Shown here: positions 35,611-36,659 of the stretch, piece after piece | Layout: each line of letters opens with the position of its first letter | Numbering within the stretch: position 1 is the first letter of the stretch | DNA from: an uncultured Lachnospiraceae bacterium | Lineage (GTDB): Bacteria; Bacillota; Clostridia; Lachnospirales; Lachnospiraceae | NCBI GenBank assembly: GCA_947630085.1 | Contig: CANRGP010000014.1 | Coordinates: forward strand, 1-36,659 | Reading direction: 5' to 3' | DNA length: 36,659 nt | Notes under the pieces: generated by a model | The model's input: the letters and a program-made list of their open reading frames with translations, nothing else | The model's database searches: none | Told to the model about the DNA's origin: nothing | Position numbers and translations under genes: made by a program

Positions 35611-35910
35611 ATGGTTGCAGCGACGGCCTCGGGAGGAGGCGGAATGGGATTCTGGATCTTTTACATTATATTCCTGGCCGCAATGATGTGGTTCATTGCG
35701 ATTCGCCCGCAGCAGAAAGAGAAAAAGAAAATGCAGCAGCTTCTGGCAAGTGTGGCGATCGGGGACAATGTTCTTACGTCCAGCGGATTTTATGGGGTCA
35801 TCATTGATATGACCGACGACACGGTCATCATCGAGTTCGGCGGAAACAAAAACTGCAGGATTCCCATGCAGAAGGCGGCGATCGTGCAGGTGGAGAAGCC
35901 GGAAGCATAA
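35611..35910 (+). CDS. yajC: Preprotein translocase subunit YajC
   Basis: A 99-residue protein with an N-terminal membrane helix (FWIFYIIFLAAMMWFIAIRP) and the family segment QQKEKKKMQQLLASVAIGDNVLTSSGFYGVI. It belongs to the SecDF-YajC accessory complex of the Sec translocon. An AAGGAGG site precedes the ATG. Confidence 0.95.
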   Translation: MVAATASGGGGMGFWIFYIIFLAAMMWFIAIRPQQKEKKKMQQLLASVAIGDNVLTSSGFYGVIIDMTDDTVIIEFGGNKNCRIPMQKAAIVQVEKPEA

Positions 35911-35919
35911 CGGCGAAAG

Positions 35920-35957
35920 ACCGGGGGCCATGATACGGCATGACATGGTACCCCGGT
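35920..35957 (+). terminator. Stem-loop after yajC
   Basis: ACCGGGG and CCATG pair with CATGG and CCCCGGT around a ~10-base loop, with small internal bulges. No clear T run follows, so termination is likely but weak or assisted. Confidence 0.5.
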
Positions 35958-36216
35958 ATTGCTATGTTCTGGAGGGATTTAATCCGTGCCGAAACAACTG
36001 GAAATATAACCTGAAGTTATGAAATAAATTTGATTCACTATACATACAAACACAATAAAATCAAGGGGTCTTTCTGGTTTACATAATTTTTTCAAACCGT
36101 TTTTATACCAATTTTAGACCATTAGTCCCAAATTACACCAACAACAGCGCAAATACGTAGTATGGTTAAGACCATCAGCAACCAGATTGAAAGTTTGTAG
36201 AACCGGGAACTTTATA
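35958..36216. other. AT-rich stretch without genes
   Basis: Base composition falls sharply compared with the preceding 36 kb. I see no open frame with a ribosome site. A small ATGGT/ACCAT hairpin lies at ~36161-36175. This may be the flank of an integrated element; no att site can be assigned. Confidence 0.5.
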
Positions 36217-36245
36217 TTGTGGTATCGCCTGAAATCTGCTATAAT
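36217..36245 (+). promoter_or_regulatory. Promoter of the small toxin-like gene
   Basis: TTGTGG and a perfect TATAAT are spaced by 17 bases. Transcription should start near 36252, giving a leader of about 105 bases. Confidence 0.7.
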
Positions 36246-36283
36246 CTGATACATGGGAAACCAGAGCGCATAAAGGCGGCCTA

Positions 36284-36349
36284 CCCTCCACTTTTCGGAG
36301 GGGCTAACCCTCCAGATATCATGCCCTATGGGTACGAAAGAAAGGAGGG
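36284..36349 (+). promoter_or_regulatory. Structured leader with alternating CCCTCC/GGAGGG elements
   Basis: The leader holds, in order, CCCTCC (36284-36289), GGAGGG (36297-36302), CCCTCC (36308-36313) and GGAGGG (36344-36349). The last is the ribosome site of the small gene. Any C element can pair with any G element, so two exclusive folds are possible, one hiding and one freeing the ribosome site. Confidence 0.6.
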
Positions 36350-36356
36350 CGTGCCA

Positions 36357-36446
36357 ATGATTACATACTCTGACTTGATTCAGATAGGTATCTTCATTGT
36401 AGCCCTTGTGGGTCTTTGTTATCAGATCTTCAGGGGAAAGAAATAG
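36357..36446 (+). CDS. Holin-like small membrane toxin candidate
   Basis: A 29-residue peptide with a short polar N terminus (MITYSDLIQ), one hydrophobic span (IGIFIVALVGLCY) and a basic end (FRGKK). This matches the putative holin-like toxin pattern of type I toxin-antitoxin loci. AAAGGAGGG lies seven bases before the ATG; a longer frame to 36219 overlaps the promoter and is rejected. A convergent antisense promoter and strong stem-loops in the leader support a type I locus. Toxicity is inferred, not shown. Confidence 0.65.
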   Translation: MITYSDLIQIGIFIVALVGLCYQIFRGKK

Positions 36447-36472
36447 CCGCCACTACTCGCAATAGTGACGGC
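36446..36472. terminator. Stem-loop shared by toxin mRNA and antisense RNA
   Basis: GCCG-CACTA pairs with TAGTG-CGGC with one mismatch and a seven-base loop. It begins at the last base of the toxin-candidate stop codon. On the minus strand it is followed by TATTTCTTT, which suits the end of the antisense RNA. On the + strand a T6 run follows only at 36498-36503. Confidence 0.5.
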
Positions 36473-36538
36473 AGCCCGTTAAGGGTTTAGCTAGTTATTT
36501 TTTGGGGGTAGGCCGTGTGTCTCTGGCTTTCCCTCTGT
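36446..36538 (-). ncRNA. Putative antisense antitoxin RNA
   Basis: A minus-strand promoter (TTGCAT, 17 bases, TATATT; 36545-36573) would start an RNA near 36538 running toward the toxin gene and ending at the shared stem-loop. Size would be about 90-100 bases, or more if it reads through into the toxin frame. Extent is inferred. Confidence 0.45.
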
Positions 36539-36544
36539 GATTCA

Positions 36545-36573
36545 AATATAACATATCTTAGGAAACAATGCAA
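36545..36573 (-). promoter_or_regulatory. Convergent antisense promoter
   Basis: Minus-strand TTGCAT and TATATT with 17-base spacing, just after the end of the unrecognised minus-strand gene at 36581. Confidence 0.55.
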
Positions 36574-36580
36574 GAGGTTT

Positions 36581-36658
36581 TTACTTGAGTTTCCGCAGTT
36601 CTTTCCACAGAACTGTTTCCCAGATACGCTGCTTATAAACATTCGTTAAATAATCCCC
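36581..36658 (-). CDS. C-terminal end of an unrecognised minus-strand gene, partial
   Basis: The last 25 codons of a frame that runs in from outside the window, ending LTNVYKQRIWETVLWKELRKLK and TAA. The other two minus frames have stops within 30 bases. The residue pattern is amphipathic, basic and coding-like, but too short to name. The AT-rich setting beside a toxin-like locus suggests mobile-element cargo. Confidence 0.4.
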   Translation of the reverse strand, partial: GDYLTNVYKQRIWETVLWKELRKLK

Positions 36659-36659
36659 A

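Follow-up and report, generated by a model that had tools for sequence, protein, structure and literature searches.

Organization of the locus

The window, i.e. the whole stretch of 36,659 nucleotides that was analysed, holds at its right end a sense promoter-like site, a leader with four alternating complementary hexamers, an ORF of 29 codons and a 3' region complementary to the transcript start (Table 1). Judged from sequence, the parts are arranged as in a type I toxin-antitoxin system with a putative 3'-overlapping antisense RNA. The four hexamers described in the earlier note were all recovered in the claimed order on the forward strand, spanning exactly 36284–36349. Its assignment of the last hexamer as ribosome site also holds, the distance to the start codon being that expected for a Shine-Dalgarno (SD) sequence.

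Table 1 Features of the toxin-antitoxin-like locus (window coordinates)
Feature	Position	Strand	Basis
Sense promoter TTGTGG-17-TATAAT, TG one base before -10	36217..36245	+	sequence and recurrence in relatives
Predicted toxin mRNA start	about 36252-36255	+	from sense promoter
5' strand of end-to-end helix, GGGAAACCAGAG...GGCGGCCTACCCTCC, hexamer 1 included	36255..36289	+	fold z, covariation over 125 loci
Hexamer 1 CCCTCC; partners hexamer 2, hexamer 4 or 3' GGGGG	36284..36289	+	
Hexamer 2 GGAGGG (relay); partners hexamer 1 or 3	36297..36302	+	
Hexamer 3 CCCTCC (anti-SD); partners hexamer 2 or 4	36308..36313	+	
3-4 loop, long form, 30 nt	36314..36343	+	loop lengths in 125 loci
Hexamer 4 GGAGGG, SD of candidate toxin	36344..36349	+	7 bases before ATG 36357
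29-aa Hol_Tox membrane peptide, candidate toxin	36357..36446	+	Pfam PF16935
Hairpin, would-be terminator of antisense RNA	36446..36472	-	terminator-like site
Element 5, GGGGG, predicted to capture hexamer 1	36504..36508	+	SD cost drop 36503 to 36515
3' strand of end-to-end helix	36504..36533	+	folding, own versus other tails, covariation
Antisense promoter TTGCAT-17-TATATT, extended -10 (TGT before)	36545..36573	-	sequence and recurrence in relatives
Predicted antisense start	about 36538	-	from antisense promoter
Predicted antitoxin RNA, about 100 nt	36436..36538	-	sequence, terminator-like site, promoter recurrence

The ORF product, MITYSDLIQIGIFIVALVGLCYQIFRGKK (29 aa), matches the Pfam family Hol_Tox with an E value of 1.8e-6 and 28.2 bits (curated cut-off, 23.3 bits); peptides from two other four-hexamer loci remained under this cut-off (18.4 and 17.2 bits). 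The NCBIfam model PepG1 (NF041589), which requires 70 bits, was not matched by the window peptide (16.4 bits), and phage and plasmid collections contained no match to it at E 0.1. The combination typical of type I systems, a small hydrophobic peptide encoded behind a structured, SD-hiding leader, is present with the structure as a prediction, and the peptide is presumably toxic. Rfam covariance models yielded no match in positions 35900–36659 up to E 5; on seven related loci, the one match obtained was to a tRNA that lies at one end and not within the element.

Neither of the two promoters was listed by a generic promoter scan of the window, nor did the scan list a terminator-like site by which the sense mRNA could end (36504–36545). 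In many relatives, TTTTTCT comes right after the 3' strand, so that the end-to-end helix might itself act as sense terminator. The last codons of the candidate toxin (GKK; 36436–36472) are at the same time complementary to the T tract in the terminator of the antisense RNA. In the window copy with its long 3-4 loop, an in-frame ATG lies 12 codons before the toxin start (36321–36356), with no obvious ribosome site upstream.

The last 76 bases of the window (within 36568–36659) are matched at 100 % identity at the end of another contig (C93) of the same genome, and shorter pieces of 36568–36659 adjoin three further contig ends (C61, C83, C8); this segment is probably a repeat that broke the assembly. 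A reading frame on the minus strand ends at 36581 and may represent the terminal part of a mobile-element gene.

Distribution among Lachnospiraceae

Peptide matches were detected in 21 out of 26 genomes of the genus, the own genome counted. In the genus, 46 distinct loci matched by the peptide were compiled, again with the own genome, and 38 of them showed the four-hexamer pattern. Dropping the 8 loci without the pattern and 3 with a short tail left 35 for further use. A leader model (R1), built from sequence only, matched 82 of 397 sampled Lachnospiraceae genomes and 76 of 334 genera. Genomes often carry several copies of the leader element, at times in tandem; whole elements are arrayed as three copies 371 bp apart in L158 (119–953) and as two copies in L116 (1009–1586).

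In a class-wide draw, the leader model matched 5 of 291 genomes. Three of these belong to the own family (the own genome, G047 and, weakly, G204); the remaining two are G660, a strong match from another family, and the weak match G669. Among the 80 matches listed out of at least 120, carriers of the core pattern include Acetatifactor (a member of Lachnospiraceae), Blautia, Roseburia, Eisenbergiella, Mediterraneibacter and Enterocloster, together with one record labelled Alistipes (label as given). The leader core is also present in 8 viral contigs, from which 4 of the 73 loci of the second set described below stem.

A second copy in the own genome (L057; contig C77, about 499–812) has lost its start codon and contains an in-frame TAG. 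Its promoter and 5' strand are replaced, its 3' and antisense side looks intact, and by its sequence it could be an orphan antitoxin RNA.

Conservation of the hexamers

A search for hexamers 1 to 3 that allowed variable spacing gave one occurrence in the window and none in 100 dinucleotide shuffles; the pattern is no product of chance. Conservation was determined in 125 loci, a set that left out L135, L196 and L197 (5' end or tail lost), L036 (longer ORF), L057 and L022 (5' end replaced), L001 and L019 (already present) as well as duplicates. Hexamer 2 reads GGAGGG in 124 of these loci, hexamer 3 CCCTCC in 121 and hexamer 4 GGAGGG in 113, and hexamer 1 occurs as CCCTCC (66), CCCTCT (48) or CCCTTC (8). 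All six bases are standard-paired for 1:2 in 122 loci, for 1:4 in 118, for 2:3 in 123 and for 3:4 in 120, conservation and pairing figures both being favoured by the location of the hexamers through their likeness to the consensus. Hexamer 2 is near-invariant with no evident coding or ribosome role. The commonest form of the 3-4 loop, AGACGAAAGAAA, has 12 nt; this length occurs in 89 of the 125 loci and a length of 30 nt in 9.

Changes within the hexamers are mostly C to T or A to G (69), by which pairing is kept as G·U, versus 4 breaking transitions and 6 transversions. The earlier note had looked to conservation and covariation of the hexamers in homologous loci for support of a translation switch. 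The former was borne out across the sampled family genomes and the 125 loci; two-sided covariation is nearly absent, plausibly because every hexamer is tied to at least two partners and hexamer 4 would in addition have to bind rRNA.

A helix joining the transcript ends

The full-length RNA of the window folds with a z-score of -6.5. Pairing between the transcript ends was evaluated in 98 loci, obtained from 119 model matches after dropping 7 weak or antisense matches, 5 duplicates, 7 loci without a recognised ORF and 2 with short tails. The first 48 nt of the leader pair with the own tail at a mean of -45.7 kcal/mol, as compared to -39.2 kcal/mol with the tails of 20 other loci. The own tail surpassed the mean of the other tails in 87 of the 98 loci and in 64 of the 73 loci of the second set; it was the best of 21 in only 18 of the 98, because relatives share much of the helix sequence. 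Within the genus (35 loci), the mean gain of own over mismatched tails was small (-47.6 versus -44.3).

Two-sided covariation is present in the 5'-3' helix flanking the hexamers, one leader position being represented by 64 G-C, 28 U-A, 12 C-G and 4 A-U pairs in the 125 loci. In the same loci, the helix contains 483 G·U pairs versus 34 one-by-one A·C mismatches, a ratio inflated by the duplex program, which favours G·U; an excess of this kind is expected if the sense RNA pairs. Hexamer 1 lies inside the helix, its CCC columns pairing with the tail in 117–122 of the 125 loci, and a fifth element at the 3' end (GGGGG or GAGGG) matches it. Three loci (L178, L179 and L198) have a very different helix sequence (GGTGCTACC...GGTAGCACC) with the hexamer scheme unchanged.

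Promoter-like sites on both strands

Promoters were surveyed in 87 family loci, 11 of the 98 being left out. Upstream of the leader, a promoter score of at least 9 (of 13) was reached in 80 loci, in 70 of which the -10 element ends 7–9 nt ahead of the first G of the leader; the rate of such scores in shuffled upstream windows was 8.8 %. On the opposite strand, scores of at least 9 were obtained in 81 loci (mean score 9.7 versus 7.1 shuffled), and in 74 of these the -10 element ends 9–13 nt beyond the 3' strand. From this position, the predicted RNA would begin as complement of the 3' strand and would thus resemble the mRNA leader, with which it would compete for that strand.

A hairpin motif of the type GCCGCC...GACGGC is located right behind the stop codon in 138 of 171 loci. 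The 9 nt ahead of this hairpin contain a mean of 6.5 A, the T tract of the antisense RNA being the complement of the last Lys codons. Overall, sequence comparison gives good support to the conservation, to the end-to-end helix and to the antisense promoter-like site.

Predicted accessibility of the Shine-Dalgarno sequence in the window RNA

All energies given here are equilibrium predictions that consider neither proteins and ribosomes nor kinetics. For the leader alone, 90–96 % of the predicted ensemble consists of the nested pairing 1:4 plus 2:3. According to the earlier note, a fold with 1:2 and 3:4 hides the SD and an alternative fold with 2:3 frees it. The former agrees with the predictions; in the latter, hexamer 1 is left to pair with hexamer 4, and the SD is hidden there too. 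In the calculation the SD is freed by the 3' end of the mRNA (36504–36533), which takes hexamer 1 and does not figure in the earlier note. As a complete scheme, this two-fold model was rejected, since the 1:4 pairing had been omitted from it. A leader switch controlling translation of a type I-like toxin is supported as possible, albeit not by the two-fold mechanism as written.

Opening the SD costs 8.9–10.9 kcal/mol in the six truncated transcripts that were folded with ends up to 36503. Extension from 36503 to 36515 lowers it from 10.9 to 4.9 kcal/mol, and at full length it is 4.75 kcal/mol. Blocking 36446–36537, 36473–36537 or 36500–36537 from pairing results in costs of 9.3, 9.7 and 10.8 kcal/mol, respectively. 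When the outer 5' strand alone is blocked (36256–36267), the cost is still low (5.55 kcal/mol) although 3:4 accounts for 0.61 of the ensemble, i.e. the SD cost tracks no single helix.

Upon reaching full length, the ensemble shifts from 1:4 plus 2:3 or 1:2 plus 3:4 to 2:3 without 1:4, which makes up 0.88 of the full-length ensemble; hexamer 1 is paired with the 3' end in 0.72. The minimum-energy structure of the full-length window RNA keeps 1:2 and 3:4, with the SD paired, whereas the ensemble prefers 2:3. Within the long 3-4 loop of the window copy, CATGCCCT can still pair with part of the SD region.

Predicted accessibility across loci and controls

The same predictions were performed for 94 loci (the 98 minus 4 without a recognised SD). 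Median SD costs were 8.8 kcal/mol for transcripts ending at the stop codon, 4.5 kcal/mol for the full length, 9.1 kcal/mol with the 3' end blocked and 8.9 kcal/mol with mononucleotide-shuffled tails; even the full-length mRNA thus needs a median of 4.5 kcal/mol to open its SD. The full-length cost was below the blocked value in 92 of the 94 loci, below the to-stop value in 87, below the mean of the shuffles in 88 and below the lowest of six shuffles in 77. The full form was no more open than the to-stop form in 7 loci, and no more open than the blocked form in 2.

A second set was assembled with a pattern in which hexamers 2, 3 and 4 are fixed and hexamer 1 and the tail are left free. Of its 129 matches, 27 belonged to the first set as well, 18 lay at an edge, 7 lacked an ORF and 4 were duplicates; 73 loci remained. 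As these loci stem mostly from the same bacterial family, they represent a new sample and no independent lineage. Medians were 9.1 (to-stop), 4.3 (full), 9.4 (blocked) and 9.0 kcal/mol (shuffled), the full-length value being below the blocked and the one-shuffle value in all 73 loci and below the to-stop value in 72. Hexamer 1 was found in 72 of the 73 loci though the pattern did not fix it. Barring hexamer 2 from pairing in the full RNA raised the cost to 10.5 kcal/mol, with an increase over the full value in each of the 73 loci; in terms of the folding model, this rise represents the relay step.

The 30 top-ranking Hol_Tox loci from a search of the family mostly possess one anti-SD and one SD, and 23 of them were taken into a comparison (7 dropped). 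In these two-hexamer loci, the end-to-end helix has a mean of -48.0 as compared to -43.4 for mismatched tails, and SD costs are 9.5 (to-stop), 5.2 (full) and 9.5 (blocked), full being lower in 21 of 23. An added complementary hexamer pair keeps the parity, so that both designs are predicted to be open with the 3' end paired.

As a positive control, bsrG of B. subtilis (Hol_Tox, 34.5 bits) was treated by the same procedure, its transcript being taken to start 7 nt after the -10. An end-to-end helix was found, and the SD hairpin comprises 5 bp in the full RNA and 9 bp without the 3' end. This predicted shift is in line with the published change, SR4 binding to the 3' end of the bsrG mRNA, whereby the helix that sequesters the SD grows from 4 to 8 bp according to the available excerpts of PMC7430163 and PMC6562991. 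The SD cost of bsrG barely moves (8.3 full, 8.8 to-stop, 8.3 or 10.7 blocked, shuffled mean 9.0). For the loci studied here, the predicted direction of the switch rests on equilibrium folding with these controls.

Proposed mechanism and alternatives

The locus is probably a type I toxin-antitoxin system of the BsrG/SR4 kind, the toxin mRNA of which would act as a strand-displacement relay by means of inserted hexamers. Sequence analysis and computation established conservation, covariation in the end-to-end helix, promoter-like sites on either strand and, as a prediction with controls, the accessibility of the SD. Both RNAs are presumably made and would refold in the cell as predicted, with SD accessibility setting translation.

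In the nascent leader, 1:2 and 3:4 (or 1:4 and 2:3) would pair and the ribosome site would be hidden. Once made, the 3' end would pair with the 5' end in the long helix and take hexamer 1; hexamer 2 would then take hexamer 3, leaving hexamer 4, the SD, open. It is hence the complete mRNA that would be translatable. An antisense RNA whose transcription begins on the opposite strand a short way past the 3' strand would cover the latter, upon which hexamer 1 would return to 2 or 4 and hexamer 3 to 4, and translation would be off.

More tentative is the full version of this scheme, for which the chances appear nearly balanced: a five-element relay upon completion of the 3' end (5 takes 1, 2 takes 3, 4 is free), an antisense antitoxin that mimics the leader and competes for the trigger strand, and a possible origin of the relay from a two-hexamer ancestor by gain of one complementary pair with parity unchanged.

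Among the alternatives, a system resembling RatA or SR5, in which the antisense RNA works only via RNase III decay and the leader hairpins damp translation with no switch, is unlikely but has precedent, as two of three probed B. subtilis systems (txpA/RatA and bsrE/SR5) show no SD refolding in the available text of PMC6562991. It leaves unexplained, however, why there is an additional hexamer pair, why hexamer 2 hardly varies and why element 5 is in register with hexamer 1.

Marginally less probable is the logic of hok and aapA, where the end-to-end helix would be the OFF state, 3' trimming would activate the mRNA and the hexamers would be mere transient co-transcriptional locks. This logic has been published for aapA mRNAs (accessible parts of PMC6733600 and PMC8167048), and the minimum-energy fold of the full-length window RNA, with its paired SD, would fit it. 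Yet the helix here pairs hexamer 1, an anti-SD-like strand, and not the SD, and with the 3' end blocked, opening of the SD is predicted to cost more (92 of 94 and 73 of 73 loci). Assignment to this group, in which 3' pairing hides the SD and its removal opens it, was rejected, the opposite effect being predicted. The suggestion of the earlier note that the mRNA might need processing to become active follows the same logic and finds no backing, as loss of the 3' end is here predicted to close the SD.

Two further readings carry very little weight. A MITE-like DNA element with terminal inverted repeats and an incidental small ORF, the end pairing being a DNA feature, would agree with several copies per genome, tandem copies and copies near contig ends, but the excess of G·U over A·C (in a ratio inflated by the program) is unexpected for a DNA repeat, and promoter-like sites stand at near-fixed distances on both strands with SD and ORF conserved. 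Just as improbable is a ligand-sensing leader (riboswitch or attenuator) in place of an antisense-controlled toxin: the alternating hexamers recall attenuator logic, but the element is without an Rfam match, and hexamer 1 finds its partner in the 3' end of the same mRNA, behind which lies an antisense promoter-like site.

Comparison with known systems

A word search of the available text of a review on type I systems in Clostridia (PMC6563280) retrieved neither "Lachnospir" nor "Blautia". Literature on Hol_Tox, Lachnospiraceae or Blautia type I systems, mutually exclusive folds of toxin mRNAs and RNA motifs of the family was covered in part; in the titles and abstract beginnings covered, the present design is not described.

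The closest counterpart is BsrG/SR4, a type I system of the B. subtilis SP-beta prophage, which shares with the locus the Hol_Tox peptide and a computed long helix of the mRNA ends; a closing of the SD as in BsrG/SR4 is predicted for 92 of 94 and 73 of 73 loci with the 3' end barred from pairing. In contrast, bsrG has one anti-SD and a little-changed SD cost, whereas here two extra hexamers would serve as relay and the start of the predicted antisense RNA resembles the mRNA leader. The two-hexamer Hol_Tox loci of the same family likewise combine the end-to-end helix with the predicted parity (21 of 23), but their 3' strand would take the anti-SD directly, with no relay pair.

Full-length mRNA as the active form is known from timP/TimR of enterobacteria, where, as far as described in the excerpts of PMC11228461, activity depends on a pseudoknot that is broken by the antitoxin RNA; timP differs in encoding another toxin and in having a pseudoknot instead of an end-to-end helix with hexamers.

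If the proposed mechanism is true, it would provide a natural precedent for engineered toehold cascades, realized in a widespread RNA element that lacks an Rfam match, is tied to a Hol_Tox-like peptide and occurs in about one fifth of the sampled family genomes (82 of 397). Long-distance 5'-3' pairing is shared with aapA/IsoA of H. pylori and with hok/sok, the hok mRNA being end-paired as well. In the aapA mRNAs, end pairing hides the SD (accessible parts of PMC6733600 and PMC8167048), and sequential co-transcriptional SD locks have also been described for aapA3 (PMC6733600, same parts). The predicted polarity is the reverse: while the 3' end of aapA mRNAs hides the SD, that of the present toxin mRNA would free it and thereby turn translation on.
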